Positions 1 to 49,390 of a stretch of 49,390 nucleotides of DNA are shown piece by piece. The stretch's first letter is position 1. Each line of letters begins with the position of its first letter. The translations under genes were made by a program, and so were the position numbers. The stretch lies in assembly GCA_014237405.1 (NCBI GenBank), contig JABZFO010000120.1, positions 1 through 49,390 on the forward strand. The letters are read 5' to 3'. This DNA comes from Desulfosarcina sp. Lineage in GTDB: Bacteria; Desulfobacterota; Desulfobacteria; Desulfobacterales; Desulfosarcinaceae. Below the pieces are notes generated by a model, which was not told the DNA's origin, made no database searches, and was given only the letters and a program-made list of their open reading frames with translations.

Positions 1-772
1 TCGCCCACACGGCTGGGGAAAGAGATTTACGTGTTCGTGGATCGGCTTGCCCAGCAAATGAAGCTGCTGGAAACCGTTCCCTTCGCCGCCAAGTTCGGCG
101 GCGCCACCGGCAATTTCAACGCCCACCACATGGCCTATCCGGACATCGACTGGATCGCCTTCGGCAACCGGCTGGTGAACGAGGGGCTGGGGCTGTACCG
201 CTCCCGGGTGACCACCCAGATCGAACACTACGACCACCTGGCTGCGTTTTGCGACGGCGTGAAGCGGATCAACACCATCTTGCTGGATCTTTGCCGGGAC
301 TTGTGGATCTACATCTCCATGGGCTATTTCAAACAGAAAATCAAAAAAGGTGAGATCGGCTCCTCGGCCATGCCCCACAAGGTCAACCCCATCGATTTCG
401 AGAATGCCGAAGGCAACCTGGGTATCGCCAATGCCGTTTTGGAACACCTGTCGGCCAAGCTGCCCATCTCCCGGCTTCAGCGGGACCTGACCGACTCCAC
501 GGTGACCCGCAACATCGGGGTGCCTCTGGGCCACACCCTCATCGCCCTTAAATCGCTCAAGCGGGGGCTGGACAGGCTGATCCTCAACGAAGACGCGCTG
601 AAAAGAGATCTTGACAACAACTGGGCCGTGGTGGCCGAGGGCATCCAGACCGTGCTGCGGCGGGAAGGCTATCCCAAGCCCTACGAGGCCCTGCTGGCGC
701 TTACCCGCACCCACGCGGTCATCGACCAGGCCGCCATCGCCGCGTTCATCGACTCCCTGGATGTGGCGGAGA
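1..772 (+). CDS. purB: adenylosuccinate lyase, C-terminal part (5' cut by window, 3' end damaged)
   Basis: Cleaves SAICAR to AICAR and adenylosuccinate to AMP in purine synthesis. The reading frame is open from the first base (SPTRLGKE...), so the start lies outside the window. The fumarase/aspartase-superfamily signature is clear: the flexible catalytic loop GSSAMPHKVNPIDFENAEGN is encoded at about 361-420, followed by SRLQRDLTDSTVTRNIG, as in the E. coli-type PurB. The family normally ends about 20-25 residues after the IDSLDV helix encoded near 750-765. Here the frame instead runs into the next gene's sequence, read out of frame, up to a stop at 916-918. The natural C-terminus appears to be missing together with the start of the neighbour. 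The identity is firm; the true end is not in this sequence. Confidence 0.9.
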
Positions 773-1652
773 CACCTCAAAGAATACGCGCGTGCCCTTA
801 CCGGCAGGGACGTCTTTATTGCCTGCCGGGAAGGCATTCTGCGCGACCACTTTCAGGATATCATCACCGACATCAAGTTCCTGGTGCGCCACGGCGCACT
901 TACCACCTTGCTCCATAATATGCCCAACCGGTTTGCCAACCAGAAGCTGATCAAACAGCTGGAGCGCCGGCTGCCGGCCACCGGCATTGTCCGGATTTCC
1001 CCGGAAATTGATTTTTACGACGCGGTGCTCGATCACCGGAAATCCATGTTCAAGGTCATTTTGCTGGAACGCCGATATCTCATTGACCGCCATGGGAATA
1101 AAATTAACGCCATCACTACCGGCCGGGTCCGTGAATCGCTGGAGGATTTCGGCGGTCTGATCGCCAACGTCAACTTCAAGGGCGCCATGGCGTGCATTTG
1201 CCGGAAGATCGAGGCCGGGCAGTGTGACCGCGTGCATATACTGCCGGCGGGCAAGAATACCATCAAACACGAACTCTTCACCGTGGAAGGGGCGGGCACC
1301 CTCATCGCCAACAACTTCCAGGAGGATTTTTGTCAGGTGCGGACCGATGAAGAGGTGGCCATCGTTTACCGAATTCTTGAGATGTACAAGCGCTCGGGCT
1401 TTTTGAAACCCCGCACCAAAGCCTACCTGAAGAAAAACCGCAACCGTTTTTACGTCACCGCCATCGACGGCATCGTGGTGGGATGCGTGGAGCAGAAAAT
1501 CATCGACGAGCAGACTGTTGAACTGGGCGCACAACCCCCGTCTGGAAGCGCTGTACGCCCAGCTGGGGTTCGTTCAGGAGAGCCGTCCGGAATACCGGCA
1601 GCGGCAGGCCCAGAGTCCGGATGTGAAGATGTTTTTCAACACCGATGAATGA
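773..1652 (+). pseudogene. N-acetylglutamate synthase-like protein (amino-acid-kinase fold plus GNAT), start missing and frame broken
   Basis: The frame is recognisable from HLKEYARAL (773) to TVELGA (about 1531). An amino-acid-kinase-like region carries HELFTVEGAGTLIA (near 1269-1310), matching the ELFT..G.GT motif of ArgA/ArgB kinases, and is followed by the start of a GNAT acetyltransferase domain (FYVTAIDGIVVGCVEQKIID). At 1528-1533 the reading jumps to another frame. Roughly 35 residues of the acetyl-CoA-binding part are absent, and the family's usual end (NPRLEALYAQLGF ... VKMFFNTDE, stop 1650-1652) follows. No start codon with a ribosome site is visible because the beginning is fused to purB. 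The likely role is N-acetylglutamate formation for arginine synthesis. The double damage looks like lost sequence, not slow decay, since codon quality is good on both sides. Confidence 0.7.
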
Positions 1653-1723
1653 AAGTGGCTCATAAGGATGACGCGAATACGGGCCGTTTATAATCCAATA
1701 TGGGCAATTCGCGACAGGACGGC

Positions 1724-2944
1724 TTAAATATACCTGCGGAGCAACAGCGCGGCAAACGTTCCCCCGGATGCGCAGGCGTTGACCAATCCATGGTTCACGG
1801 TCATTTCCCGGCTTTCCGTTTTTACCGCATCCAGTGAAATGATGGGAGACGTAAGACCGAGGGTCGGCGGCACGATGCCGGCGTGGATGGACAGCGCCAT
1901 GGCCGCTGCGCGGATGCCGCCGGAAGCAAAATTCTCTCCCAGGGCGCCTTTAATGGCTGTCACCGCCGGCTGCACGCCACCGTTAAAAAACTGCTCCAGC
2001 GCCCGGGCCTCCAGCCGGTCGGACTTGATGCCGCCGCTGGCCGCCGCCGACACCGTTTCGATGTCACCGGGACCGACTCCCGCCATGGCCATGGCCTTCT
2101 CCATGGCCAGCACCAGTCCGGCCGAATCGTCGGGCCAATCGTTGGCCGGTGCCGGTGCCCCGCTCATGCCCCAGCCGGCTATTTCACAATAAATGGTTGC
2201 ACCCCGCGACCGGGCCGATTCCAGCGACTCGAGGCAGAGCAGCCCTGCCCCTTCCCCAGCCACCGGGCCATTGCGGTTCCGGTCGAAGGGGCGTGCCTGC
2301 TCCTCACCGCCATCCTGAGGCGATAAAGCCATGAACCGCTCCAGCACGGTGAAAAAAAAGGGGGAGAGAATATCCCCGCCGCCGGCCAGCACCACATCGC
2401 CCCGGCCCTGTTGGATCTGGGTCGCCGCGTAAGCGATGGCCGTTTCCGCCGAGGCCTCCCGGTGGTTCACCGTGGTGTTGATTCCCCGCAGCCCCAGTTC
2501 GATGGCCGCGTGGCCGGCCGGGGCGTTCATCACCGTGTTGGGCACCAGGATGGGGTTGACCCGTCGGGGGCCGTCGGTGAACAGGGTGCCGGCGAACCGG
2601 GCGGCCACATCCGTAGCGCCGAAGGCCGTACCCATGACGATGCCGATGCGGTTCCGATCCGTACCGTCGAGATCGATCCCGGCATCTTCCAAAGCCATGC
2701 GTGCCGACGCGGTGACTATCCCGGAGAGGCGGTCCATGCGCCGCAGGGTCCGGCCGGAGATGAAATCCCTGGGTGAAAAATCACGAACTTCGCCGCCCAT
2801 ATGAGATTGAAAGGGCGCGGTGTCGAACCCTTCAATGGGGCGGATGCCGCAACCGCCGCCGAAAAGATTCTCGGAAAAAGCCTCCCGTCCGATGCCCAGG
2901 GGCGTCACCAGCCCCATTCCGGTAACCACCACCCGCCGGCTCAC
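1724..2944 (-). CDS. ketosynthase-like protein without catalytic residues (KS-beta / chain-length-factor type)
   Basis: About 406 residues with a full thiolase-fold ketosynthase layout, starting VSRRVVVTGMGLVTPLG. The start is a GTG whose last bases overlap the upstream gene's TGA, so the two are translationally coupled. Every catalytic position is replaced. The nucleophile site TACSSG of normal enzymes reads HREASAE, with Glu at about residue 163. The first His motif (NAHGT) reads SAAASGG near residue 301. The second (KSMIGH) reads KGALGE, keeping Lys332 but with Glu337 for His. Such a protein cannot condense on its own. By analogy with KS-alpha/KS-beta pairs of type II polyketide and aryl-polyene systems it should heterodimerise with the active ketosynthase next door. 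In classical chain-length factors the Cys is usually Gln; Glu is uncommon. No carrier protein, acyltransferase or ketoreductase lies nearby, so the product is unknown. Confidence 0.8.
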   Translation of the reverse strand: MSRRVVVTGMGLVTPLGIGREAFSENLFGGGCGIRPIEGFDTAPFQSHMGGEVRDFSPRDFISGRTLRRMDRLSGIVTASARMALEDAGIDLDGTDRNRIGIVMGTAFGATDVAARFAGTLFTDGPRRVNPILVPNTVMNAPAGHAAIELGLRGINTTVNHREASAETAIAYAATQIQQGRGDVVLAGGGDILSPFFFTVLERFMALSPQDGGEEQARPFDRNRNGPVAGEGAGLLCLESLESARSRGATIYCEIAGWGMSGAPAPANDWPDDSAGLVLAMEKAMAMAGVGPGDIETVSAAASGGIKSDRLEARALEQFFNGGVQPAVTAIKGALGENFASGGIRAAAMALSIHAGIVPPTLGLTSPIISLDAVKTESREMTVNHGLVNACASGGTFAALLLRRYI

Positions 2945-4185
2945 CGTGCACCGCCGTTTTCCGAAAACCTTCCGAAAGCCAGGACGGTGTTGTTTCCGCC
3001 GAAGGCAAAGGAGTTGGACAGCACCACGTTGACTTGTGCCTCCCGTGTACCGTCGGACACGTAGTCCAGGTCGCATGCCTCACCAGGGGTTTCATGGTGG
3101 ATGGTCGGGGGGACGAACTGGTGCTCTATGGCCAGCATGCAAACGACGGCTTCGATGGCCCCGGCAGCCCCCAGGGTGTGGCCGATCATGGATTTGGTGG
3201 AGCTGACCGGAATCTGCCTCGCCCGGGTACCGAAAACGGACTTGATGCCCCGGGTCTCCATCAAGTCGTTGGCCGGGGTGGCCGTGCCGTGGGCGTTGAT
3301 ATAGTCCACATTATCGGCAGAGATACCGGCATCGGCCAGGGCCGCGGTCATGGCGCTGACGGCGCCAACCGCGTTCATATCCGGGGCGGTCATATGGCTG
3401 GCATCGCAGCTGATGCCGCAGCCGAGCACTTCTCCGTAGACGGTCGCCCCCCGCTTCCGAGCATGATCCAGGGATTCCAGGATCAATATTCCCGCCCCTT
3501 CCCCCAGGGTCAGGCCCTGGCGATCCCGGTCGAAGGGCTTGCAGTAATCCGGATCCACGGCCTGAAGGGCGTTGAAGGCCGAATAGGTGATGCGGCACAA
3601 GGGTTCGGTGCCGCCGCAGACTACCACTTCGGCAGTTCCCTGCCGGATCAGATCCCGGGCGTATCCAATGGCCGTGGCACCGGACGAGCAGGCGGTCATG
3701 AATGTGGTTTTGGGTCCCATGAGCTTCAAGTGGGTGGCAATGTGGTCCGCCGATGAGGCGCAGGAGAAGGCGGCAAACGGGGAACCGGGCATCCGGTCGG
3801 CACCACTTTCCAGGTAGCGTGCGAATATGGGTTCGCACTCCAGCATGCCCCCGGCGCCGCCGCCGATCACCACGCCGGTAACCGCTGCAAGCTCTGTTGA
3901 AACAGGTGTCAACCCGGCGTCTGCCAGGGCTTCCAGCGTAGCCGCCATGGCCATGCAGTCCGCCCGCGACATGCGCTTTAAGGAAACGGTTCTCGGAATA
4001 TGCAGTAGGGGATCGAAATCTTTGACCTGGGCCCCGGTATGGGTGCGGTAACCGGCAGTGTCGAACAGAGTCACCGGACCAATGCCGCAGGTGCCGGCCT
4101 TCAGGGCGGCGGCAAACTCGGACACATTTTTGGCGATGGCGTTGACGGTTCCCCGTCCGGTGACAACTACCTGATCTGATTTCAT
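2941..4185 (-). CDS. beta-ketoacyl-[acyl-carrier-protein] synthase II-like (active ketosynthase partner)
   Basis: 414 residues, the usual length of FabF-type condensing enzymes. All catalytic residues are present: Cys166 in TACSSGATAI, His299 in INAHGTATP, Lys331 and His336 in STKSMIGHTLGAAGA, and the C-terminal SNSFAFGGNN loop. The reaction is decarboxylative condensation of malonyl-ACP with an acyl thioester in the cytoplasm. It is the first gene of a two-gene unit and overlaps the inactive KS-like gene by 4 nt, which suggests a KS-alpha/KS-beta heterodimer rather than primary fatty-acid synthesis. I therefore give no fabF symbol. The start ATG at 4185 matches the family N-terminus (VVVTGRGTV). 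The ATG is preceded, on the coding strand, only by a weak purine-rich stretch. Confidence 0.85.
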   Translation of the reverse strand: MKSDQVVVTGRGTVNAIAKNVSEFAAALKAGTCGIGPVTLFDTAGYRTHTGAQVKDFDPLLHIPRTVSLKRMSRADCMAMAATLEALADAGLTPVSTELAAVTGVVIGGGAGGMLECEPIFARYLESGADRMPGSPFAAFSCASSADHIATHLKLMGPKTTFMTACSSGATAIGYARDLIRQGTAEVVVCGGTEPLCRITYSAFNALQAVDPDYCKPFDRDRQGLTLGEGAGILILESLDHARKRGATVYGEVLGCGISCDASHMTAPDMNAVGAVSAMTAALADAGISADNVDYINAHGTATPANDLMETRGIKSVFGTRARQIPVSSTKSMIGHTLGAAGAIEAVVCMLAIEHQFVPPTIHHETPGEACDLDYVSDGTREAQVNVVLSNSFAFGGNNTVLAFGRFSENGGAR

Positions 4186-4646
4186 ATGCCTCGGTTTGGA
4201 AGGAGGAACGATTCACCGAAAATCGGATGCGGTCTCGATATGCGGGCCAAACCTTAACCAGATGCGTTGTGGAAAGTCAAGGTGGTGCAAAGGTGAGGGC
4301 AGGACAATCGCATGGTCCACCAAGCGCCATTGGGTCAACAATGCATGCGATTGCCCTGAATGTAAGGTGAGGATATCCATCAAAACAAGAATTTCATTAC
4401 CCGTAGGCGTTCACGGGTTTAGGGTTCACCGTTCAGGGTTGCTTTTTTCTTTGATCTTGCTTGTAGGCCTGCAAGTACTTGATGAAACCACATATGGGTT
4501 GAACCTCTGAACCCGTGAACGGTTACCATTACCCTTGTTGCGATGTCGCCGGTCGTTTGCTGTTGACAACAAGGCCGATTATGGTTCTATTTATAGAAAA
4601 AATAATGCTTTGCCGCGGCCCTAACCAAGCACACGGGGGAAGGGAT
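4186..4646. other. non-coding stretch between ketosynthase pair and small membrane-protein gene
   Basis: About 460 nt without a convincing gene. The ORF possible at 4196-4510 has no recognisable domain, no ribosome site and odd composition, and runs through an inverted repeat, so I do not accept it. The stretch holds the upstream region of the leftward ketosynthase pair (near 4186-4300) and the imperfect inverted repeat at 4408-4521. I see no strong promoter match. Confidence 0.5.
4408..4521. repeat. imperfect inverted repeat, about 21 nt arms around a 71-nt core
   Basis: The left arm (4408-4428) begins CGTTCACGGG and ends AGGGTTCA. The right arm (4500-4521) reads TGAACCTCTGAACCCGTGAA then CG, which is its reverse complement with a few differences. 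The core contains a near-palindrome, CTTGTAGGCCTGCAAG (about 4459-4474). It could form a cruciform or RNA hairpin, or be a miniature element. It carries no coding sequence and no T-tract typical of a terminator. Confidence 0.6.
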
Positions 4647-4910
4647 ATGGAAAGAAGAGAAACCGAAGACCGTCGGCAGGTTCACATGTTCGTCGCACAA
4701 GAGCGAAGAGATGGGCCATACGAAAGAAGGGGCGACGCAACCAGACGCCGGGAAAGAAAGCAGGAAAGGGAAAAAATAGAAAGAATTCGCGCCTTCAAGG
4801 AAAAAAAGAAAGCGTCTTTGCCTGTCACACCAGTGATGACAAAAAAGCGATGGGTTTACTTAGGCCTGGCCTTGCTGGTTATCGTTGTCGCCGTATTTCT
4901 GATCAAGTGA
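4647..4910 (+). CDS. small basic protein with C-terminal membrane anchor, unknown function
   Basis: 87 residues. I chose the ATG at 4647 because a GGGGGAAGGG purine run sits just upstream; longer in-frame extensions lack a ribosome site. The first 50 residues are extremely rich in Arg, Glu and Lys (MERRETEDRRQ, then RRRERKQEREKIERI) and look like a charged helix or coiled coil. They are followed by a single hydrophobic helix (WVYLGLALLVIVVAVFLIK) that ends the protein. This is a tail-anchored layout with the charged part in the cytoplasm. I recognise no family. It lies alone between repeats and is followed by a REP-like pair and a strong terminator, consistent with a monocistronic gene. Confidence 0.6.
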   Translation: MERRETEDRRQVHMFVAQERRDGPYERRGDATRRRERKQEREKIERIRAFKEKKKASLPVTPVMTKKRWVYLGLALLVIVVAVFLIK

Positions 4911-4926
4911 TCCTTTTGATAAAGAT

Positions 4927-4990
4927 ATCGCGGCTGGAAGCCGCTCCTACAGGGGGCATGTTCATCGTAGGAGCGGCTTCCAGCCGCGAT
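4927..4990. repeat. pair of REP-like palindromes in opposite orientation (BIME-like)
   Basis: Two 24-nt arms (4927-4950 and 4967-4990) are perfect reverse complements around a 16-nt spacer. Each arm contains its own small palindrome, GCGGCTGGAAGCCGC. The core TAGGAGCGGCTTCCAGCC resembles the REP sequences scattered in many proteobacterial genomes and mobilised by RAYT transposases. It sits between two converging genes, the usual location for such elements. Confidence 0.75.
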
Positions 4991-5020
4991 GGCAGCAAGG
5001 AAACTGTTTCGCAATCAGAG

Positions 5021-5058
5021 AAAAAGCCCCGGTGGCCTGAAGGGCCACCGGGGCTTTT
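5021..5058. terminator. strong bidirectional intrinsic terminator
   Basis: AAAAA, then a perfect 12-bp stem (GCCCCGGTGGCC at 5026-5037 pairing with 43-54 of the next block), a 5-nt loop TGAAG and TTTT. It can act in both directions and separates the rightward small membrane-protein gene from the leftward porin gene. Confidence 0.9.
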
Positions 5059-5136
5059 GAATTCATCTGTTATGCTGTCGAAATCAAGCATCCGGAAAAG
5101 ATTGATGCCGGATTGCATTCGGCATGACAGGATCGA

Positions 5137-6726
5137 TTAGAATGCTAAGGTCAACCGTCCGTAGAAGGTGGTGTTGTCTTCGACTTCGGTATTGTAGCCG
5201 CCGGCTTTCCAGTAGTCGCCGGCATCCAGATGGGCAATCACGCCCCAGAACTTCAGGTTGTTCATGATGTCCCCGTAGAGCAGGCCCAGATTCAGGTTGT
5301 CCAGCACCTGGTACTTGGCGCCCAGCCAGAAGGACGTGTAGCCTGCCGGACCGGTGACGGTGGTATGGCCGCCGGAGACGTTGCCCAGGGGGATGCCGTT
5401 TTCGTCGGTTCCGCCCAGGGTGGTGTTGAGGTTCTGAACGTCCGAGGTGAGCAGGAAACCGTGTTCCAGGTCGAGGGACTGCTCGAAATAACCGACGGCG
5501 CTGGTTTCGTCATCATCCGGGTTGCTGTCACCCTGAATATAGGTGCCGCCCGCGTTGAGGGTGAATCCGGCGATGTCGTATTTTACGTCCAGTGTAGCTG
5601 CCAGTGCTGCTGCGTCGATGGAGTTGAAGGTGGCGCCGGAAACCGGATCCGTCCGGGTTTCATTCAGGTCGACGGAACCCCACCCATAGAGAATTTCCGC
5701 TTCCGCATAGAGCGGTCCGAAAGTGCCCATAAAATAGGGGTTGATTACCCACAGCCCCAGTTCAGAGCGGGCGGGGCCGGCGGATATGGCTGCACCGGCG
5801 GCAGCGGCCTGGCCCTGGGCGCTTATCGCGTTGGAATTAAGACCATAAAGGTCGATTGCAGGAAGGCCAGCACCTGCAAGCGTTGCATCAAGAGCTGCGC
5901 TTTGGGCAGCGTCAAAGGGGGCAGCCTGTACAAGAGGCACCAAAGCGGGATTTAGAGCACCGGCTAATTGGAGACCTTGAGCATAAGTACCGGCATAGGT
6001 GCCACTGGCAACGGTAGCCGCGTCGACTGATTGCGTATAGCTCGCATAACCCATCTGAAAATTTCTGAGATCCCTCATGGTGACGTAGTTTTTGTTCTGG
6101 TAGTTGGCGACCAGCAGGCCGGTTGACCAGTTCTCCTGCTTGTAGGCAGTAAAACCATAGTATTTATGGTAGTCGGCATCGGTCATGATGTTTCCCTGAT
6201 CCCCCTCCCCGTTCTTCTGGGCGACGAGGCCGGAGATGAAGTCACCTGTGGGCACCACCCACATGATGCGGTCCTTGTGCAGGCTGTTGCTGCCGTGGCT
6301 GGCGGTGCTGTCGCCCATTGCGGTACCCCAGGGGGTATCGATGTAGCGGCCGATGATAAACCCGCCGATGGGAGACTTGATGGTCATGTAGGCGGCCTTC
6401 CAGTCGATGTTGTTGGTATCGTCGATGTCCGGTGCCAGCGGGTTGGTTTCGTTGAGCTTGGAGTTGGCATCGGTGCCCCACACATGGTCCTGCAGGGCGG
6501 TGAACTGGGTGGTGAGGGTGATGTTGTCGTTGACCTTGAACACCGGCTTCACCATGAGCTCCATGGTCGAGTAGTCGTCCGTAGCATCATCCTTACTGAG
6601 GTTTTCGTTTGAGTGATTGAAGTGCTCCACAAAATAATGACCCGAGACCTCCACCTCCAGGGCCATCGCCGGTGCAGCGATCATCAACGCTACACACAGG
6701 GCGATCATAAACCTAATGTTTTTCAT
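5137..6726 (-). CDS. outer-membrane porin-like beta-barrel protein
   Basis: 529 residues from the ATG at 6726, chosen because a perfect AGGAGG lies 7-8 nt upstream and because MKNIRFMIALCVALMIAAPAMA is a clean signal peptide; a longer ORF to 6750 lacks this. The mature part alternates polar and hydrophobic residues in short strands, has few Cys, and ends ...YGRLTLAF with a C-terminal Phe, the BAM recognition signature. This points to an outer-membrane barrel, probably a passive solute channel. The segment of about 100 residues encoded near 5780-6020 is unusually rich in Ala, Gly and Gln and could be a long surface loop. The gene is followed by a strong terminator and is downstream of an exported FG-GAP protein gene transcribed the same way. 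Confidence 0.75.
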   Translation of the reverse strand: MKNIRFMIALCVALMIAAPAMALEVEVSGHYFVEHFNHSNENLSKDDATDDYSTMELMVKPVFKVNDNITLTTQFTALQDHVWGTDANSKLNETNPLAPDIDDTNNIDWKAAYMTIKSPIGGFIIGRYIDTPWGTAMGDSTASHGSNSLHKDRIMWVVPTGDFISGLVAQKNGEGDQGNIMTDADYHKYYGFTAYKQENWSTGLLVANYQNKNYVTMRDLRNFQMGYASYTQSVDAATVASGTYAGTYAQGLQLAGALNPALVPLVQAAPFDAAQSAALDATLAGAGLPAIDLYGLNSNAISAQGQAAAAGAAISAGPARSELGLWVINPYFMGTFGPLYAEAEILYGWGSVDLNETRTDPVSGATFNSIDAAALAATLDVKYDIAGFTLNAGGTYIQGDSNPDDDETSAVGYFEQSLDLEHGFLLTSDVQNLNTTLGGTDENGIPLGNVSGGHTTVTGPAGYTSFWLGAKYQVLDNLNLGLLYGDIMNNLKFWGVIAHLDAGDYWKAGGYNTEVEDNTTFYGRLTLAF

Positions 6727-6941
6727 CTGGCTCCTCCTTGTTAAGAACATGGTGGTTAGTACACGTACTGATTCAGCTGACTGTAATGCTTTCGATCACC
6801 CCCTTTTCAATTGACGTGTGGATGCAGTTGTCCAGGCTGCACCGACAATCCAGCATGTGGTTGGCAACGGTCAGATGTCTAAAATGATAAATCTTTATAA
6901 AGAGTAACGGATATTGGAATTTTACTGTTTGTCGCTCCCCA

Positions 6942-8621: not shown

Positions 8622-8698
8622 CAAATCAGGGAGTCTCCTTTTCCTATTTCAGGCGTGTGAACCATGTTAACATGATCCATGAAAAATTAAAAGTGCAA

Positions 8699-9454
8699 TT
8701 ACACCCGGCCTCCGCTCCATTTCAGCTTGGCCTTCAGAACATCGAAGTAGTTCTGGTCGGGCAGGGTGATCATCTGCACCGGACTGGGGCTTTTACTGAT
8801 GATGATCGTGTCCCGATCGTCGATCTTCAACCCCACCTGGCCGTCGCAGGTCAGCATGATGTCCGAGGTGTCTTCGGCCAGTTGGATTTTGATGGTGGCT
8901 GAGTCGGGGACCATCAGAGGCCGGTTGGTGGCCACGATGAGCCCGTCCGCACGGTAATCGGTGAGAAACTGGTCGTCGATATGGGTGCGAATCCGGGCCA
9001 GTCGAGCCAGGGCACCCTTGTTGATCACCACGTCATTGAAGGCCGACTCCCGGGCGATCTCGACACCCTCGCGGAGCGCCTGAACCTGCAGCCGCATTTG
9101 CGGCCGAATGGTGAATTGATCTTCCAGGATGGCTTCGGCCACCTCGCACAGGCGATCCTCCGTGGTCTCCGCCAGGAATCCCACCTCGCCGAATTTCACG
9201 CCGATGATGGGGATCTGCTGGTCGCCGATCCAGCGAACAGCGCTTAAAAATGTGCCGTCGCCGCCCAAAACGAATACGCAGGAAAGCGATTTCGGTGCCT
9301 GTTTCCGTGATCCTTCCGATCGCTTCCCACCGGGAGTCCCGATTTGCCGCCGGATGACGGTGAGGCCTTTATTGACCAGCCATCGCTCGAACCGGTCAGC
9401 CTGCTGCCGGGCATTGTCTTCGTCTTTGACAACCAGACCGATGTGTTTTTTCAT
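8699..9454 (-). CDS. nadK: NAD kinase, with an internal in-frame loss of the NAD-binding motif
   Basis: Phosphorylates NAD to NADP. GGDGT (residues 64-68) and the NDVV motif (140-143) are plain, and the C-terminus YFDVLKAKLKWSGGRV is typical. The protein is only 251 residues. After YRADGLIVAT (to residue 176) the sequence continues directly with NRPLMVPD, so the family's TPTGSTAYSLAAGGP block and what follows, roughly 34 residues (about 102 nt), is absent at about 8927-8929. That block binds NAD, so the encoded protein would not work, although the enzyme is normally essential. The loss keeps the frame and would escape an ORF caller. I take it as missing sequence and not as a natural short variant. 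Confidence 0.88.
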   Translation of the reverse strand: MKKHIGLVVKDEDNARQQADRFERWLVNKGLTVIRRQIGTPGGKRSEGSRKQAPKSLSCVFVLGGDGTFLSAVRWIGDQQIPIIGVKFGEVGFLAETTEDRLCEVAEAILEDQFTIRPQMRLQVQALREGVEIARESAFNDVVINKGALARLARIRTHIDDQFLTDYRADGLIVATNRPLMVPDSATIKIQLAEDTSDIMLTCDGQVGLKIDDRDTIIISKSPSPVQMITLPDQNYFDVLKAKLKWSGGRV

Positions 9455-15190: not shown

Positions 15191-15798
15191 ATGAACTCAG
15201 AAAATCACCACACCCATACTTTTTCCCATTTGAAAGATGCTGTCGTTTTTTTCGTTACTGTGGCCACCTGTACCTTCTTGCTGACCGCCGCTTGTACTTT
15301 GACTAAAACAACTGAAATTATTGTCGATACGATACCTCTGCTGGCCATGCCTCAACCTCCGGCACCGCTTGAGCTATCACCGGAACCCGAGTCCATTCTG
15401 CCGGAGATCGAAGTGATCTCGGCAGGTGTCGAAACCATTGCGGAGATATCATCGGCGCCGGATGGGGCCGTGGCGTACGAACCCATTCCCTTTCACGGTA
15501 TTATTGTTCAGGCGGCCGGACGATATGAAGTGGACCCGCACCTGATCCGGGCCATCATCTTCGCAGAATCCGGTTACAACCCCAGGGCAAAATCAAAGAA
15601 AGGGGCCCGCGGACTGATGCAACTCATGCCGTCCACCGCGAAATCTCTGGGTGTTGAAGACAGCTATGATCCGGAGGAAAATATCGACGGCGGGGGGTCC
15701 CGCCATTCCGGGCCACACAGCTGTATATCAAGAAGGTGTTGAAATTTCATAAGATATTCAGAACGGAAATGGCCACTCGCACCGGGCGACTGGCCTGA
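15191..15798 (+). pseudogene. lytic transglycosylase lipoprotein (SLT domain), frame broken by an internal loss
   Basis: The N-terminus has a hydrophobic segment ending LLTAAC, a lipobox-like site, then a Pro/Glu-rich linker and an SLT (MltC/E-type) domain: [31 protein letters not shown] with the catalytic Glu in AESG, and [17 protein letters not shown]. At ENIDGG (about 15690-15697) the frame shifts. The remaining family sequence [20 protein letters not shown] continues in another frame to the stop at 15796-15798. About 32 residues including the conserved ALAAYNAG motif are missing. The enzyme would cleave peptidoglycan glycan strands at the outer membrane. The break has the same size as those in other genes here, so I attribute it to lost sequence. 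Confidence 0.8.
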
Positions 15799-21537: not shown

Positions 21538-21964
21538 ACCCGGAGACGGTATCGGTAAAAGATACAGCATTTATGACAGCGGCGCTTGATCTTGCCCAAG
21601 AGGCCCTGGCGGTCGGCGAGTTTCCCGTGGGATGCGTGATTGCAGACGGAGACACTGTGGTTGCCCGGGGTCACCGCACAGACACGGGGACAGGATCGGG
21701 TAACGAGATCGACCACGCTGAAATCAATGCTCTCAGGCACCTTTACAGCGCCAGGCCAGAGATCGATCGTTCGACGCTGACCCTATATTGCACCATGGAG
21801 CCTTGTCTCATGTGCTTTTCCGCTATCTTGCTCAGTGGTATCGGCAGGATCGTTTACGCCTATGAAGATGTAATGGGGGGCGGTTCTTCGCCGATTCGGG
21901 GAACCCCTACTGGGCGGACAGCCTGTTGAGTCGCTATACTTTGAAGCAGCCGGTTTCTCCATGA
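21534..21964 (+). pseudogene. tadA: tRNA-specific adenosine deaminase, frame broken by an internal loss
   Basis: Deaminates the wobble adenosine of tRNA-Arg to inosine. The zinc and catalytic motifs are intact: HAEINAL (His and the proton-shuttle Glu) and TMEPCLMCFSAIL (two Cys), then GRIVYAYEDVMGGG. At the six-G run (21875-21880) the frame changes. The usual family ending FFADSGNPYWADSLLSRYTLKQ follows in another frame, stop 21962-21964. About 33 residues between them are absent. The gene is normally essential, so a real disruption is unlikely. It starts within the stop of the HSDR_N gene. Confidence 0.82.
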
Positions 21965-23692: not shown

Positions 23693-24787
<1,095 letters not shown>

Positions 24788-24811: not shown

Positions 24812-27133
24812 ATGAAAGTAAGTCTAAGCTGGCTGAAAGCATATGTGCCCATCGATATGACGGTCTCGGATCTTGCCGATGCGCTGACCATGGCGGGCCT
24901 GGAAGTGGAAGCCGTAGAGGATCGTTATGACTATCTGGAAACGATGGTCGTCGGACGGGTGGTGGAGGTGCTGCCCCATCCCAACGCCGACCTGCTGAAA
25001 CTGTGCCGGGTGGATGGAGGAAACGGCATCGTGCCGGTAGCTTGTGGGGCCCCCAACGTGTCGACGGGCATGAACGCGCCCCTGGCCCGTGTGGGCACCC
25101 GGCTGCCCAACGGCATCCTGTTGGAAAAGACCGTCATTCGGGGTGAGACCTCCGAAGGCATGCTGTGCAGCGAGATCGAACTTGGCCTGGGTATAGACGG
25201 TTCAGGTCTCATGGTGCTGGATGAGAATTTTCAGCCGGGCATTTCCTTGAAAGCGGCTTTGAATCTTTCCGACGACACACTTGAAATCGACTTGACTCCA
25301 AACCGACCCGATTGCCTGAGCATGATGGGCGTGGCCCGGGAGATTGCCGCCATCCAAGGCGTTAAAATGAATCCACCGGTATTCCGTCTGCCCGATGCCG
25401 AGGGCGACATCGGCGCGTTCACCTCGGTGACCATCGAAGCGCCGGTGCGGCCCATCAACAACCTGGTCGACGTGACCAATTTCGTAATGCTGGAAACCGG
25501 TCAGCCCCTGCACGCCTTTGATTTTGACCACCTGACCGGTCATCGTATCGTGGTTCGAACGGCTGCAAAGGGAGAGCCATTCACCACCCTGGATCAAAAG
25601 GCGCGTCGGCTTTCCGACCAGATGCTGATGATCTGCGATGGCGAAGAGCCGGTTGCCGTAGGTGGTGTCATGGGTGGACTGAGCTCGGAAATTGAGGAAA
25701 CGACCACCCGTGTGCTCATCGAAAGCGCCTGCTTCGATTCGGTCAGCATCCGCAAAACATCCAAGGCCCTGGGTCTGAATACCGATGCCTCCCACCGGTT
25801 CGAGCGGGGTGTGGATCCGGACGGCACCCTTTTTGCGTTGGACCGCGCTGCCGGTCTGATGGCCGAACTGGGGCAGGGCCGGCTGGTGGGTGGTGTTATC
25901 GATGAAGATTTCAGAACGTCAGGCCCCCCGGTGCTCTCGTTGAGTGTGTGTGCCACCAACAACCTTTTAGGCACCGGTTTGGATCGTGATCGTATGGCCG
26001 CCCTGCTGGAAAGCATCGAATTCAAGGTTCAGATCGACGGCGAAGACGGTCTTCAGGTGCAGGTGCCTTCTTTCCGTGTGGATGTCACCCGTCCCCAGGA
26101 CCTGATGGAAGAGGTGGCCAGACTCTCCGGCTACAACCAGATTCCCACCACCTTTCCCGCGCTGCCGGCCCAGGGCACCACCCCTTCCTTAATGATGGCC
26201 CGGCGCAACCAGGTCAGGGATCTTCTTACCGGGTTCGGATTTTCAGAGACCATCAACTACAGTTTCATCAGTGCAGATTCCTGCGACCGGATTCAACTGG
26301 ACGCCCATGACCCCCGCCGCCGTCATGTAGCTCTGCTTAATCCCATTTCCGAGGAGCAGTCGGTGATGCGGACCACGCTGGTTCCCGGCATACTGGAAAC
26401 GGCCCAGCGAAATATTTCCAGGCAACAGAACAGCCTGTGCTTGTTTGAAATCGGAAAGGCTTTTCTTCCCCAGTCGGATGCCGCCCTTCCCCTGGAAAAG
26501 GAGATGCTCGTCGGTCTCTGGACCGGTCTAAGCGGAAAGGCCGCCTGGCACACCCGGGAAAAGGCTTGTGATTTTTTCGATATCAAGGGTACGGTGGAAG
26601 GACTGGCCCTTGCGCTTGGCGTTGCCGCGCTGTCGTTTACCGCATTGCCGGATGATCGGTGCCGCTACACTCGGGCGGGTCACACGGCCCAGATCCTTCA
26701 CGGCGGGCAGACGCTGGGCATCGTGGGCGAGGTGGATGCCGCGGTGGTGGACAGCTACAGCCTCAGGCGGACGGCGTTTATTTTCGAGCTGGACCTGGAA
26801 ATGATAGGGCAACTGGTACCTGATTCCAAGCAGATGGCACCGATCCCCCGTTTTCCCTCAACGACCCGGGATATCACCGTCATTCTCGACCAGGATATCG
26901 AATCCGGATGCCTGTTGGATGCGGTGGCCCAATTTGGCGAAACACTGGTGAAGGACCTGTACCTGTTTGATGTGTTTGCCGGAGATCCCGTACCAGCGGG
27001 AAAAAAGAGCGTATCCTTCCGGGTGGTCTATCAGTCTGCCGACCGAACCCTGGAAGATGAAACCGTCAACGCGATTCATCACCATCTCACCCATCGCTTG
27101 ATTACCGAATTTGGCGCGGCGCTGCCGGTCTGA
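24812..27133 (+). CDS. pheT: phenylalanyl-tRNA synthetase beta subunit, with an in-frame internal loss
   Basis: 773 residues; the family is usually near 800. Domain order: tRNA-binding OB fold (about 40-150, VVGRVVEVLPHPNADLLKLC), the B3/B4 editing region (INNLVDVTNFVMLETGQPLH ... DASHRFERGVDP), B5 domain, catalytic-like core, and the C-terminal FDX-ACB anticodon domain (RFPSTTRDITVILDQDI to the end). At residue 211 VTIEAP joins directly to VRPINNLVDVTN. The normal CPRY...(31-32 residues) linker of the B3 domain is absent, about 93-96 nt, at 25444/25445. The loss preserves the frame and is easily overlooked. The rest is well conserved. The start ATG 24812 matches the family (MKVSLSWLKAYV). 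Confidence 0.9.
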   Translation: MKVSLSWLKAYVPIDMTVSDLADALTMAGLEVEAVEDRYDYLETMVVGRVVEVLPHPNADLLKLCRVDGGNGIVPVACGAPNVSTGMNAPLARVGTRLPNGILLEKTVIRGETSEGMLCSEIELGLGIDGSGLMVLDENFQPGISLKAALNLSDDTLEIDLTPNRPDCLSMMGVAREIAAIQGVKMNPPVFRLPDAEGDIGAFTSVTIEAPVRPINNLVDVTNFVMLETGQPLHAFDFDHLTGHRIVVRTAAKGEPFTTLDQKARRLSDQMLMICDGEEPVAVGGVMGGLSSEIEETTTRVLIESACFDSVSIRKTSKALGLNTDASHRFERGVDPDGTLFALDRAAGLMAELGQGRLVGGVIDEDFRTSGPPVLSLSVCATNNLLGTGLDRDRMAALLESIEFKVQIDGEDGLQVQVPSFRVDVTRPQDLMEEVARLSGYNQIPTTFPALPAQGTTPSLMMARRNQVRDLLTGFGFSETINYSFISADSCDRIQLDAHDPRRRHVALLNPISEEQSVMRTTLVPGILETAQRNISRQQNSLCLFEIGKAFLPQSDAALPLEKEMLVGLWTGLSGKAAWHTREKACDFFDIKGTVEGLALALGVAALSFTALPDDRCRYTRAGHTAQILHGGQTLGIVGEVDAAVVDSYSLRRTAFIFELDLEMIGQLVPDSKQMAPIPRFPSTTRDITVILDQDIESGCLLDAVAQFGETLVKDLYLFDVFAGDPVPAGKKSVSFRVVYQSADRTLEDETVNAIHHHLTHRLITEFGAALPV

Positions 27134-27748: not shown

Positions 27749-27794
27749 TTTCAAGTCCGGTTTCGTCTGTTCCGGTGACGGTTGCTGAACATGG

Positions 27795-41395: not shown

Positions 41396-41398
41396 GGT

Positions 41399-41881: not shown

Positions 41882-42082
41882 GAAGGCTCCCGGTGGTTGA
41901 ACCGCGAAAGTGCGGCAACCCCGCTGCTTGCAATGGGGGGAGCGCGCAGACTGAAAATCGATACGATCCTAACGATGCCGCAAAGCACTGCCGTCAGGCA
42001 GAACATTCCCCGTAGTGTACAGCGGAAAATCTTCAATACAGCAAAGGGGATCGAATGGAATTAAATGCTTGTCGGAAATGCT

Positions 42083-42637
42083 CTATAGCATGGGTTCCAT
42101 AAACGAAACAAGGGTTTTCCCGAATCGTCGCTGGTCTACAAGGGCCAGCGCGTCCATGGAATGGACAATGGGCTCCCGGGCGCTGTGTTCGATGACAACA
42201 CAGGCGCCGTGGGCCAGTGCCCCGCATGATACAAGGGCGGCCAACGCGGGTGCCACGGCATTTGTTTCATACGGGGGATCTATGAAGACCAGATCGAAGG
42301 CCTGCTGCTCCGATATCAGACAGTTGAGGTTCTCCAGAATATTCCAGTGGATGACACGGGTCTGACTTTCCAGCCCCAGATTCCGGATGTTGCGCCGGAT
42401 GGCCGAAAGGGCCGCCTTTGCCTGCTCCACGAAGGCGGCGGATACTGCGCCCCGGCTCATCGCCTCGATACCCAGGGCACCGGTTCCGGCAAACAGATCC
42501 AACACCCGCTTGTTCTGGATGCTGCCGGCCAGAATATTGAACATTGACTCTTTGATCCGGTCGGCCGTGGGCCGGGTGGCCATGCCGACGGGAGCCATCA
42601 GCCGCCGGCCTTTCAATGTTCCGCTGATGACCCTCAC
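42083..42637 (-). CDS. rsmD: 16S rRNA (guanine(966)-N2)-methyltransferase RsmD
   Basis: 184 residues with MRVISGTLKGRRLMAPVGMA, the SAM-binding motif VLDLFAGTGALGIEAMSRGA and the catalytic FDLVFIDPPYE (DPPY). Methylates G966 of 16S rRNA. Its start overlaps the ntrX-like stop by 4 nt, so it is coupled to the regulator. Confidence 0.93.
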   Translation of the reverse strand: MRVISGTLKGRRLMAPVGMATRPTADRIKESMFNILAGSIQNKRVLDLFAGTGALGIEAMSRGAVSAAFVEQAKAALSAIRRNIRNLGLESQTRVIHWNILENLNCLISEQQAFDLVFIDPPYETNAVAPALAALVSCGALAHGACVVIEHSAREPIVHSMDALALVDQRRFGKTLVSFMEPML

Positions 42638-43977: not shown

Positions 43978-44037
43978 AAAGGGTCTCCTTTCCCAAAGCT
44001 GCCGTTCAGTATTGACCGGCGGGTTCGTCGTGCAATT

Positions 44038-46278
44038 TCAAGCGGGCAGTTCGATGACAAATTTCGCCCCCTTGGGCAGATTGTCCTGCACCCGTATCAT
44101 ACCGTTATGGTCGGTGACAATGGAGTTGACAATGGTCAGACCCAGCCCCATACCGGCTTTTTTGGTGGAAAAGTTGGGTTCGAACAGCCGGATCTTGTCC
44201 GCGTCGGCGATGCCGGTACCGTCGTCGGCCACTTCCAGACGGACCAGCTTCAAAATGGGGTCGTAGGCGGCAGAGATGGTAATGTGTCCTTGGTTGCGAA
44301 CGGCGGCCACGGCGTTGTCCACCAGGTTGATCATGGCTTGTTTGAACTGCTGACGGTCCAGATTCATCTGAGGGATATCTTCACCGATCCGGACATTAAA
44401 GACGATATCCGGATGCCCTTCCTTATAGAGGGAAACGGTCTCTTCAATGATGGGGGACAGCCGGCAGGGTTTGGGGTCTGCCGTGGGAAACCGGGCGAAG
44501 GTGGAGAACTCATTGACCAGGTTGCGGATCAGTTCGACGTGATCGATGATCATACGGGTGCACTCGTCGAATACCGGTTCGTCGATGCGCTCAGAATAGC
44601 GCCTTTTGAGCCGCTGGGCCGACAGGCTGATAGGGGTGAGCGGATTTTTCACCTCGTGGGCGATGCGTCGGGCCACCTCCCGCCAGGCGGCCATGCGCTG
44701 GGCCTTTTCCAGTTCCGTGAGGTCATCGAACACCATGACGATGCCCATGGGGCGTCCCTGTTCGTCCTTCAAGGCGTTGACATATACGAGAAAGGTTCGC
44801 GGCTGCCTGTTTACCGTTACCCGCAGGGGAATTTCCAGGGTCTGGTCCCGCACCGACGTGACCCGGTCCATGATATCCTCGGCAAACTGAAGGTGTTCTG
44901 TGACCAGCAAGTCTTCATAGTGCTTGTCCAAAATCTTCCCGGCATTGAGGCTGAGCATCCGTTCCGCCGACTTGTTGAAGGTGGTGATGATGCCGTCAGC
45001 ATCCAGGGTGATGACACCGGCGGAGACATTTTTCAGTACGATTTCCATGTATTGTCGCCGCGCCTCGATTTCCTGATTCTGTTCTGTGAGTTTTCGAGCG
45101 GACAATTCCAGCTGCTGGCGGCCGGAGCGCAGATCCCGCGTCATCTTGTTGAAGGCATCCACGAGACTGCCGATTTCATCGTCCGCCGCATTGCTGTCGA
45201 TGGAGACGGTGAGGTCCCCCTCGGCCACCCGCCGGGTGCCGTCGGCCAGATCCATGATGGGAATGGTGATGGTTTTGGCCAGGTAGAAGCCAAACCACAC
45301 CGCGCAGAAGATGACCAGCAGGGCCACGATGGACAGGGTGATGTAGTAGGTGATCTGGATGGGCTTTTTCAGCAGCTTGATCTGCTGGTATTCGTCGAAC
45401 CCTCTGGAGATGGATTTCATGTTTTCCGCCAGGTCCGGGGGAATGAAGAGCCCCAGCACCACATGGGCGGTGGCCGTTTCGGGGGGAACGCCAAAGGGCA
45501 CCGTTCCGATAGTTCGAAGCAGTTCGCCGTCACTCAACGTTTCAGTGAGGGTGCGCACGTCCTTTTCGCCGGCGTCCTTGACAAATGCACCGGGGGGTGC
45601 CGCCTCCATGGCGACGTTTTCCAGGTCTTTCCCCAAGGCATAGGTGAGACGGTTGTAATTGGCCGAATAGACCTCCACTGCGTCCAGGTCGAATTCGCGC
45701 TGAACCACCTGAATGTAATGGTTAAGTTCTTTGAGCTTGTCCGGCTCGGTAATGTTTTTGCGCTGGATCTGATAGGAGATCCGTTCAAGGAAAAACCGGT
45801 GGCGGATTTCGTTTTCACGATAAAACTTCTGCCCTACCAGAAGGGACTTCTCCAAGGCTTGCTCAACGGGAACGGTGAACCAGAATTCGATGCTGTTGGT
45901 GATAAAGTTGATGGAAAAGAAGAAAAGAATGATGGTGGGCAGCAGGGACAGGGCCACAAAGGCTATGACCAATCGGGTTCGCAGCCGGGCGCCCATGACT
46001 TTTCGGCGCCGGGCATAGAGCAGCTTCACCAGGTTCCGAAACACCAGAAAGATCAACAGGATCAGCAGCAGCAGGTTGATGTTGATCAGGATGAACATCA
46101 AGATGGTGTTGGAGACCGGGATGTCGGCGCCGAATGTAATCACCCGGTTTTCCACCAGGGTGAGCACCGCCACCACCACGATAATGACGACGATCAGCAC
46201 CACCTCCCGCTTCCGGCGTCTGCGTTCTTCTTCTGAGAGGATCGGTTTTGGCGTAGGGCTGCGTTTGCCGAAAATCAT
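44038..46278 (-). CDS. membrane sensor histidine kinase, NtrY-like
   Basis: 746 residues. Three N-terminal hydrophobic helices (about 26-42, 57-82, 103-126) precede a periplasmic sensor region (about 130-305) and a further helix (310-333). HAMP (about 335-390), a short coiled coil, PAS (about 405-515), and HisKA with His541 in RIAHEVKNPLTPISLSAQRL follow. The HATPase has an N-box (INLVDNAVAA) and G-boxes (VADDGTGI, GMGLGLTI). Partner of the NtrX-like regulator; in related bacteria NtrYX links nitrogen or redox state to envelope genes. The start ATG 46278 gives a cytoplasmic charged tail before the first helix. Confidence 0.87.
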   Translation of the reverse strand: MIFGKRSPTPKPILSEEERRRRKREVVLIVVIIVVVAVLTLVENRVITFGADIPVSNTILMFILININLLLLILLIFLVFRNLVKLLYARRRKVMGARLRTRLVIAFVALSLLPTIILFFFSINFITNSIEFWFTVPVEQALEKSLLVGQKFYRENEIRHRFFLERISYQIQRKNITEPDKLKELNHYIQVVQREFDLDAVEVYSANYNRLTYALGKDLENVAMEAAPPGAFVKDAGEKDVRTLTETLSDGELLRTIGTVPFGVPPETATAHVVLGLFIPPDLAENMKSISRGFDEYQQIKLLKKPIQITYYITLSIVALLVIFCAVWFGFYLAKTITIPIMDLADGTRRVAEGDLTVSIDSNAADDEIGSLVDAFNKMTRDLRSGRQQLELSARKLTEQNQEIEARRQYMEIVLKNVSAGVITLDADGIITTFNKSAERMLSLNAGKILDKHYEDLLVTEHLQFAEDIMDRVTSVRDQTLEIPLRVTVNRQPRTFLVYVNALKDEQGRPMGIVMVFDDLTELEKAQRMAAWREVARRIAHEVKNPLTPISLSAQRLKRRYSERIDEPVFDECTRMIIDHVELIRNLVNEFSTFARFPTADPKPCRLSPIIEETVSLYKEGHPDIVFNVRIGEDIPQMNLDRQQFKQAMINLVDNAVAAVRNQGHITISAAYDPILKLVRLEVADDGTGIADADKIRLFEPNFSTKKAGMGLGLTIVNSIVTDHNGMIRVQDNLPKGAKFVIELPA

Positions 46279-46299
46279 GAGGGCATGTGCGAAAAGCGG

Positions 46300-46872
46300 T
46301 TAATAGATAAAATCTATGGTATACCAGTCGGTTTCAAAATCCCAGAGAGAGAGAAAAAAAAGGACATAGTGCAGATAATAGGGCAGCGTTACCCGGCTGA
46401 GCTTTGCCTTTGCCTGGATCTGGTACTGTTTGCCCTTTTCTAGCAGTCCCAGCGGGATTACCTTGAGGCTGTCGATCTCGGTCATGAGCTTTTTCGCCGC
46501 ATCGAAGGATTGAACGACTACGGGGCTGTTGCTGTCCCATGAGCGGGATACGGCATACTCTTTTCTAAGGCTGTTGTACTTGATGGTGTGGGTGTTGATC
46601 AGATCTGCCATTTTTTTGTCGAACCACATGCCTCGGGTCCGGTACAGGTTGACGAAAAACGAGAAGGAGGCCGGTACTCCACTTTTGACGGCGTCCTCCA
46701 TTTTTTTTGTGAAGGCGCCATCCACCGACAGGTACACCAGCAGATCGTCTCTGGTGTTGGTGACGATAATGTTGGTGAGCTTGGCATCCTTGGCCATGGC
46801 CAATCCATGGATAGACAAAAGAAGGATACCCAATACGAGAAAGCCTGTAACCCGTTGGCCGGATCGGTTCAT
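46300..46872 (-). CDS. DUF4390 exported protein
   Basis: 190 residues. A signal peptide (VTGFLVLGILLLSIHGLAMA) is followed by a beta-rich DUF4390 domain: LTNIIVTNTRDDLLVYLSVD, SFSFFVNLYRTRGMWFDKKM, then PYYLHYVLFFLSLWDFETDW near the end, which may be membrane-associated. Function unknown. It lies 21 nt upstream of the ntrY-like kinase and is transcribed with it. This linkage recurs in proteobacteria, so it may modulate the sensor. Confidence 0.83.
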   Translation of the reverse strand: MNRSGQRVTGFLVLGILLLSIHGLAMAKDAKLTNIIVTNTRDDLLVYLSVDGAFTKKMEDAVKSGVPASFSFFVNLYRTRGMWFDKKMADLINTHTIKYNSLRKEYAVSRSWDSNSPVVVQSFDAAKKLMTEIDSLKVIPLGLLEKGKQYQIQAKAKLSRVTLPYYLHYVLFFLSLWDFETDWYTIDFIY

Positions 46873-46994
46873 GGACGTGCCGCTGGATTTTCGATGTTAA
46901 CTAAATAGAAGAAAACAATACGAAAAGCAAACATACTGGAACTGTTGAAAAATGGCAAGGTGTTTTGCGTCAGGTGAGGGGAGGCGGATCTGAT

Positions 46995-47772
46995 TTATGC
47001 CGGATCGTTTGCCATGGTGCAGGTTTCCCAGGATCCTTTTTCCTTGAAGAACTTCTCCAGGAAGGCATGGTTGAAGGCGTGACCGGATTTGCTGGCCACC
47101 ACATGTCCCATGATGGGCATGCCGATCAGGGAAAAATCACCGATGCAGTCCAGCACCTTGTGGCGAACGAACTCGTCCGGATAGCGCAGTCCGCCGTCGT
47201 TGAGAACCCGGTCTCCGTCGATGACCACGGCATTGTCCAATGAGCCGCCCCGGGCCAGGCCATAGCGTTTCATCATCTCAACCTCGTGGAGAAAACCGAA
47301 GGTTCGGGCCGAGCAGATCTCTTTCTCGAAGGTCTCCCGGTCGATGATAAAATCACAGGTCTGGGTGCCGATAAGGGGGTGATCGTAGGCGATGGTGCAG
47401 GTAATTCTGAATTCGGCCTGCCGATTTGATCAGTTTGGCGAACGGGCCGGCACTGCCGTCCATAATGGGCAGTTCATAGGCGTCCACTTCGACGATGGCG
47501 TTGTCAATGAACATGCCGGTGAATCCGGCCATCAAATGCTCCACCGTGGAGACGATGCAGCCCTCGGCACCGATGACGGTGGCCAGGCTGGTGTCCACCA
47601 CGTTGTTGAAATGGGCGGTGACCCCGGGGTGGCCGGGAAGATCGGTCCGGATAAATCGAATGCCGTGGTTGACCGGTGCGGGTTTGATGGTGAGGTGAAC
47701 GGTTTTCCCCGAATGGACTCCGACGCCGGAACAGCTCACCGGCGTGTTAATGGTCTGCTGGTGGTGTCTCAT
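46995..47772 (-). pseudogene. lpxC: UDP-3-O-acyl-N-acetylglucosamine deacetylase, frame broken by an internal loss
   Basis: Catalyses the committed step of lipid A synthesis with zinc. The first half (MRHHQQTINTPVSCSGVGVH to PIMDGSAGPFAKLIKSAG) carries the zinc His in STVEHLMAG. At about 47413-47417 the frame changes. The second half continues FRITCTIAYDHPLIG, then ARTFGFLHEVEMMKRYGLAR, GGSLDNAVV, the zinc stretch HKVLDCIGDFSLIG and the catalytic GHVVASKSGHAFNHAFL, ending at the stop at 46995. About 33 residues between the halves are missing. Essential in most Gram-negatives, so the break is probably not real. The gene is divergent from comM. Confidence 0.87.
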
Positions 47773-48068
47773 TTTGTGGTATATCCTGACGCGCAGCGAT
47801 CAATCCTGACCGGACGCAGGAGACGCTGCGTTATTCTTTTCAATAATGCGGGGCCGATTCCTGCCATTTTCCATCCCCAGCGGCAACACACTCGTCCAAT
47901 CAACGGGCGCCAACTGTTCATGCAATCTTAATCATCCGTTTTTCTTTTGACAACAACTAAATGTCATTCCCTTAGACAAAAACGTTGTTCTTGGCTGGCG
48001 GGCTTGATATACATCTTACCACGCAAGTTTCGCACGAAGTAGTCAATTATTTTTAAGGGAGATGGGAT

Positions 48069-49390
48069 TTGCTCGCCAGGGTATTGAGCAGTGCCGTCAT
48101 CGGTATTGATGCCTATCTGGTGGAGGTGGAAGTGGATATTGCCCACGGGCTGCCGACCTTCACCACGGTGGGGCTGCCGGAAACGGCGGTCAAGGAGAGC
48201 CGGGAGCGGGTCAAATCCGCCATCACCAACTCCGGCTACACCTTTCCGGCGGATCGGATCACCGTCAACCTGGCCCCGGCCAACATCAAGAAAGAGGGGA
48301 CGGGCTTCGACCTGCCCATGGCTTTAGGGATCCTTTCCGCCACCGGCATCCTTCCCGAAAAAGCAATTTCCGGTTACCTGTTTTTGGGTGAACTATCCTT
48401 GGACGGCCGCGTCAAGCCGGTCAACGGTTCCCTGCCCATGGCCATCGCGGCTCAGAAGGCGGGATACCGCGGCATTGTGGTCCCCGCAGATAACGGTAAA
48501 GAAGCATCCGTGGTGTCGAACCTCTCCGTTTATCCGGTCCGCACCCTGGGTCAGGTAGTGGATTTCCTCCGAGGGTTCAGGTCTATTCTTCCGGTAAAGA
48601 CCGACCTACGGGCCGTGTTTGATGCCCCTGATCGTTCCGGGACTGATTTTGCCGAGGTGATGGGCCAGGAGCATGCCAAGCGTGCTTTAGAAATCGCTGC
48701 GGCCGGCGGTCATAACATGCTTATGATAGGCCCCCCCGGCTCGGGCAAGACCATGCTGGCCCGGCGAATTTCTACGATTCTACCGCCCATGTCTTTTGAA
48801 GAGGCCATCGAAACCACCAAAATTTTCAGTGTAGTGGGGATGTTGAACCGGGAGCAGCCGTTAGTCACCCGACGGCCCTTCCGTTCTCCCCATCATACCA
48901 TCTCAGATGCAGGCCTCATCGGCGGTGGCCACATTCCCAGACCCGGGGAGGTGAGCCTGGCCCACAACGGCGTTCTGTTCCTGGACGAATATCCGTCCAG
49001 CTTTATGCTCATCGCCGCCATGAATCCATGTCCGTGCGGTTATTTTGCCGATCCGCGCCACGCGTGCCGGTGCACGGCCCACCAGATCCACCGCTATCGA
49101 TCTAAAATTTCCGGACCGCTACTGGATCGCATCGACATCCATGTGGAAGTGCCTGCAGTTCCTTACAAGGACTTAATGGTGGACGCGCCTGCCGAACCCT
49201 CAGAGGCCATCCGGCAGCGAGTGGTGGCGGCACGCCGGATACAGATCAAGCGGTTCAAAAGAACAAAGATCTACAGCAATGCTCAGATGGCCAGCCGCCA
49301 TATCCGTGCCCACTGCCGCATCGGTGATGATGCCAACAGCGTCTTGGAGTCGGCCATCGACCGCCTGGGCCTGTCGGCCAGAGCCTACAA
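48069..49390 (+). CDS. comM: Mg-chelatase-like AAA+ protein ComM/YifB (3' cut by window, in-frame internal loss)
   Basis: 440 codons are present and open to the window edge. The start is TTG 48069: AAGGGAG (48055-48061) precedes it by 7 nt and the reading LLARVLSSAVIGIDAYLVEV matches the family; the ATG at 48062 is out of frame. A ChlI-type N-domain is followed by Walker A GPPGSGKTM and the AAA+ core. After NGVLFLDE the sequence goes straight to YPSSFMLIAAMNPCPCG, so the usual LPEF...LT segment of about 31 residues (93 nt, just after Walker B) is lacking at 48989/48990. In natural transformation ComM is a branch-migration helicase. The frame is kept, so an automatic caller would see nothing wrong. 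Confidence 0.9.
   Translation, partial: MLARVLSSAVIGIDAYLVEVEVDIAHGLPTFTTVGLPETAVKESRERVKSAITNSGYTFPADRITVNLAPANIKKEGTGFDLPMALGILSATGILPEKAISGYLFLGELSLDGRVKPVNGSLPMAIAAQKAGYRGIVVPADNGKEASVVSNLSVYPVRTLGQVVDFLRGFRSILPVKTDLRAVFDAPDRSGTDFAEVMGQEHAKRALEIAAAGGHNMLMIGPPGSGKTMLARRISTILPPMSFEEAIETTKIFSVVGMLNREQPLVTRRPFRSPHHTISDAGLIGGGHIPRPGEVSLAHNGVLFLDEYPSSFMLIAAMNPCPCGYFADPRHACRCTAHQIHRYRSKISGPLLDRIDIHVEVPAVPYKDLMVDAPAEPSEAIRQRVVAARRIQIKRFKRTKIYSNAQMASRHIRAHCRIGDDANSVLESAIDRLGLSARAY

Follow-up and report, generated by a model that had tools for sequence, protein, structure and literature searches.

Nine conserved genes or gene boundaries of a Desulfosarcina contig were reported in a preliminary description to lack a block of about 85-110 nt each, which raises the question whether the organism or its assembly lost this DNA. 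The stretch analysed here (in the following called the window) comprises 49,390 nt and is the entire contig C67 of a draft genome (G000) of 4.90 Mb in 201 contigs, with ordinary quality figures of 92% completeness and 4.8% contamination. Genomes of same-genus relatives served for comparison, among them G006, whose coordinates correspond to D. widdelii PP31.

Joins in the window

To locate the putative losses we aligned the window to the relatives at the nucleotide level. At every position named in the preliminary description the alignment broke and resumed past a block carried only by the relative. The flanks were collinear, in the same order and on the same strand, with several relatives, including three whose genomes consist of one or two contigs (G001, G004 and G009). 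The following joins were found, where the names purB and NAGS are taken over from the preliminary description:

770..774, + strand: 3' portion of a purB-like gene joined to the 5' portion of the gene that follows (NAGS-like); 243 nt net versus G009, intergenic DNA included
1530..1533, + strand: join that interrupts the NAGS-like gene; loss of 110 nt, frame lost; one relative (G009), at 1532
5273..5274, - strand: probable join that interrupts a porin-like frame (5137-6750); loss of 102 nt; one relative (G002 only)
8927..8930, - strand: join in nadK (8699-9454, - strand); 102 nt missing, frame kept; four relatives, at 8929
15693..15694, + strand: join that interrupts a gene with a transglycosylase SLT domain (frame from 15191); loss of 100 nt, frame lost; one relative (G010)
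21879..21884, + strand: join that interrupts a tadA-like deaminase gene (from 21534); loss of 103 nt, frame lost; six relatives, at 21883
24069..24071, + strand: join that interrupts pheS; loss of 86 nt, frame lost; seven relatives
25445..25446, + strand: join in pheT (24812-27133); 93 nt missing, frame kept; seven relatives
27760..27788, no strand: non-coding join 3' of tRNA-Gly, near 27774; loss of about 72 nt (69-75 nt depending on the relative; seven relatives)
47415..47417, - strand: join in lpxC (about 46998-47772, - strand); 95 nt missing, frame lost; three relatives
48989..48990, + strand: join that interrupts comM (from 48069); loss of 93 nt, frame kept; four relatives

At the eight measurable joins among those originally named, 110, 102, 100, 103, 86, 93, 95 and 93 nt are missing compared to the same-genus relatives. 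The sizes that had been estimated from family spacing (107, 102, 97, 98, 86, 95, 98 and 93 nt) all lie within 5 nt of these values. A comparison with close relatives had been proposed as a check; the relatives carry 86-110 nt more at all eight joins. The reading frame is kept at three of the eight (losses of 102, 93 and 93 nt), as had been claimed. All nine joins are present, with the one at 770 real but unsizeable; the count itself was too low, since two more joins were found, the non-coding one near 27774 and a probable one at 5273 that is seen with one relative.

The alignment shows the join at 770 to be real. G009 is the one relative that spans it, and its additional 243 nt comprise a gene end, a variable spacer and a gene start, such that the loss cannot be sized. 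The G009 spacer resembles a dispersed repeat (query 933-1037) of about 100 nt with many matches in G000. For the NAGS-like frame (611-1645) Pfam returned no family.

Single relatives deviated slightly at two joins: G001, the fifth relative at 8929, gave 100 nt, and as the fourth relative at 47415 it gave 98 nt. The nadK product measures 251 aa in the window and 285 aa in most relatives; among the 120 best matches listed, proteins that cover the whole query have at least 280 residues. The pheT product has 773 aa as opposed to about 804 aa, and full-query proteins among the 120 best matches listed have 803-813 residues. In all 39 relatives searched the pheT match splits at residues 209-213 of the window protein. 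In 38 of these relatives a single contig carries both parts, and in G024 they are on two contigs; the match in G007 contains an additional split further along.

The window also contains stretches that some relatives lack. Between pheS and pheT lies a dispersed element (24612-24783; about 180 nt) that is absent from five relatives. C91:10091-10271 resembles it at 90% and C151:39747-39875 at 75%, and the C91 copy matches many sites in other Desulfosarcina genomes. About 135 nt at 41901-42043 are absent from two relatives and have no second copy in the G000 sequence searched.

Losses across the genome and in control genomes

Twenty contigs of G000 were sampled, and three long ones (C61, C151 and C91; taken whole, 219 kb) were aligned to the relatives. 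A strict criterion demanded an identical loss size in at least two relatives, while under a loose criterion one relative was enough for losses of 50-160 nt. As controls we used seven relatives, which were compared among themselves by the identical procedure. In this way 178,951 bases of G000 and 466,950 bases of the seven controls were aligned to at least two relatives.

Under the strict criterion G000 contained 20 losses of 68-123 nt, distributed over the window (7), C61 (5), C151 (3) and C91 (5). The controls contained one loss of this class (90 nt in G003) in their 466,950 bases. The remaining strict losses measured 13 and 591 nt in G000, and 36 nt (G004), 10 nt and 11 nt (both G010) in the controls, which thus showed four losses overall. 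With a rate taken from two control losses (36 and 90 nt) the excess in G000 corresponds to a Poisson P of about 1e-21. The loose criterion gave 41 losses in G000 versus 21 in the seven controls. Ten of these 21 control losses were seen only against G012; in three control cases, of which G003 contributes two and G004 one, a loss is seen against two relatives that disagree about its size. Beyond the three long contigs, C15 contains losses of 81 nt and 95 nt, each supported by two relatives, as well as of 86 and 125 nt (one relative each), and losses against a single relative were found in C12 (94 nt) and C133 (74 nt). At the G003 site (contig C175, L042:14654) two relatives agree on 90 nt and a third gives 84 nt. 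Contig C91 carries another dispersed repeat of about 140 nt (L059:15294-15437) with many copies in G002, G004 and G009.

For the size distribution we considered a set of 21 losses, which consists of the window's eight and 13 from the three other contigs; the coding status was examined for the window's eight. The losses had a mean of 93.1 nt and a standard deviation of 15.0 nt, with 15 of the 21 being at least 86 nt and six being 68-83 nt long. These sizes are compatible with a normal distribution (Shapiro P 0.78) and also with a uniform distribution between 68 and 123 nt (KS P 0.50). The size range of 85-110 nt given in the preliminary description therefore holds for the eight window joins (86-110 nt) but widens to 68-123 nt over four contigs, and up to 125 nt when C15 is included. 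A spread of about 68-125 nt does not support the term 'uniform size'.

By extrapolation from 20 losses in 179 kb, the 4.9 Mb of G000 would contain roughly 550 joins, provided that the sampled rate holds.

Join anatomy and search for the missing DNA

The joins are blunt. The longest common word near the cut points averaged 4.6 nt for the 21 blocks, compared to 4.7 nt for 3000 random pairs, i.e. there was no excess of microhomology. An excess of inverted matches at the cut points was likewise not seen for the 21 blocks, and their folding energy per base resembled that of random windows, of which up to 600 were compared (P 0.80). The GC content was 0.58 in the missing blocks and 0.575 in the flanks (22 blocks). 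Three simple origins were rejected on these grounds: a drop-out of coverage caused by GC content or hairpins, given that GC is like that of the flanks and folding like that of random windows; false merging via a short common overlap, given that common words are not in excess at the cut points; and a natural deletion that used short direct repeats, given that the block ends carry no repeat of several bases beyond random.

The frame is kept at 9 of the 21 losses (P 0.36). Together with the non-coding join, this chance-rate frame keeping provides no sign of selection on the lost DNA. Apart from the blocks, 27 small indels are common to at least three relatives. The length of 24 of them is not a multiple of 3, and many lie between longer frames.

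The missing blocks could have been present elsewhere in the assembly. For eight joins (lpxC, comM, tadA, pheS, pheT, 27774, NAGS-like and nadK) we scored 40 of 94-166 first-look candidates in G000 and found the block in none of the eight cases. Nor was an intact pheS found in G000, where two pieces and a 22-bit match in C99 were obtained, or an intact lpxC, of which two pieces were obtained; at 92% completeness a copy of either gene could sit in the missing part of the genome. The C99 match is to the class II synthetase core and belongs to an open frame of 305 residues on the - strand (8957-9262, L112), which presumably resembles a pyrrolysyl-tRNA synthetase. A bacterium of this kind is not expected to live without pheS, pheT and lpxC. 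A second protein with both NAD-kinase domains is encoded on C117, such that nadK alone constitutes no proof. Protein searches for pheT and nadK revealed no intact allele of the same species among the 120 best matches listed; the best full-length pheT match listed was 84% identical and one partial match 85%.

N characters were absent from the window. In 1.34 Mb of G000 examined, contig C130 contains 1,604 N. Two other contigs contain N as well, C71 (all N) and C73 (at both ends), and the N of all three probably represent masking. Outside these three contigs no N was seen in the G000 sequence examined.

Contig ends in G000 are left unmerged. Positions 1..39 of the window are identical to the final 39 nt of contig C118, and the two contigs adjoin by their position in G009. 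Among 148 contig ends (of 402), seven pairs overlap exactly, by 39, 47, 73, 90, 118, 119 and 119 nt. The sizes of these overlaps do not differ significantly from those of the losses (KS P 0.40, n=7). One fixed k-mer as the cause was rejected, given that the end overlaps range from 39 to 119 nt and are not of one length; we note that 39 and 119 appear to resemble k values used by known assemblers.

Origin of the losses and known assembly errors

The losses in G000 are very probably an assembly artefact of some kind. Equal losses against many relatives, their presence on several contigs, controls nearly free of them, frame keeping about as frequent as by chance, and the fragmented state of pheS and lpxC all agree with the systematic artefact that the preliminary description had proposed. 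The one similar loss in the controls (G003, 90 nt) and the 21 control losses under the loose criterion speak against this reading, as does the lack of a conspecific intact allele among the protein matches listed. That a decaying genome truly lost the blocks is very improbable. Such deletions would be in agreement with the absence of the bases from the given sequence and of any conspecific intact allele from the matches; however, pheS and lpxC are found only in pieces, the sizes fall into one narrow class, short repeats, a usual mark of natural deletions, are missing at the joins, the frame survives about as often as by chance, and the long window frames of 909 and 758 residues, which we take to be infB and pnp, remain open. 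We regard it as extremely improbable that the chromosome truly lacks the blocks and that the cell restores them from unassembled DNA or at the RNA level, which would amount to a bacterial scrambled-gene system; chance-level frame keeping, the non-coding join and the narrow sizes point to an artefact instead. The G000 losses contain no new biology.

Within the artefact we tentatively consider, as close to an even chance, that pieces spanned by read pairs were abutted and the bases between them dropped. An assembly break would leave two pieces, which, being bridged by a read pair, would be placed end to end. The unread inner stretch would be dropped without the insertion of an N run, such that the loss would match the inner distance between paired reads, which would account for sizes with a mean of 93 nt and a standard deviation of 15 nt irrespective of gene or frame. 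Living cells are predicted to carry intact genes. Two alternative steps inside the same artefact are double trimming and N removal. In double trimming the exact end overlap of neighbouring contigs is cut from both sides before abutting, and the common stretch is lost. The unmerged ends do overlap by 39-119 nt, which is the scale of the losses (the KS comparison given above), and C118 and C67 are true neighbours by their position in G009. Yet three of the seven overlaps measure 118-119 nt while none of the 21 losses does, nor does any of them match the two shortest overlaps (39 and 47 nt), with 148 of 402 contig ends compared; this step is conceivable but rather unlikely. Removal of N, for which scaffold gaps would have been filled with N that were deleted afterwards, was the cause named in the preliminary description, along with gaps closed too tightly, and stays a possibility that we hold to be unlikely. 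It would leave blunt joins without common bases, as seen, and agrees with the lack of N outside the probably masked C71, C73 and C130. Scaffold gaps are, however, usually far more variable in length, whereas no strict loss of 14-67 nt was found and above 123 nt only a single one (591 nt). The read-pair step is favoured over both double trimming and N removal because of the size distribution and the lack of losses of 118-119 nt, although a uniform distribution describes the sizes equally well.

The losses resemble in part a known class of assembly error. As worded in the part of PMC6169397 used here, a QUAST local misassembly has contig flanks whose alignments on a reference scaffold are separated by more than 85 bp and less than 1 kb; an excerpt of PMC5681816 contains a shorter version of this definition. 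In likeness to these excerpts, the G000 flanks lie in the same order and on the same strand of the reference. In difference to them, 6 of the 21 losses are below 85 nt and would count as long indels, the references used here are other species, and the consistent G000 events are mostly losses of one narrow class. According to the portion of Chen et al. 2020 (PMC7111523) considered, metagenome-assembled genomes bring incomplete or incorrect protein-coding sequences into public databases through their gaps and local assembly errors, and local assembly errors are suspected to be prominent in IDBA-UD assemblies. The errors treated in that portion are regions without read support, and Ns that were inserted despite an overlap, whereas genome-wide losses of about 93 nt without N, as in G000, are not described in it. 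A bias in variant calling in draft assemblies is the subject of PMC5368935, as far as its excerpt goes. Among the titles and abstracts searched we found no description of losses of about 93 nt that recur throughout a genome.

For the use of G000 this means that genes that look broken are not to be trusted. If the sampled rate holds, there is one broken spot about every 9 kb despite the ordinary quality figures, and gene-loss, pseudogene and pathway calls from this genome would be wrong, with errors that are invisible as Ns. Losses of equal size against at least two relatives, with the relatives themselves as controls, provide a simple way of detection that requires no reads. Among the relatives, contig C457 of G012 (L045:3658) shows a gain of 157 nt versus five relatives, perhaps a join error of its own.
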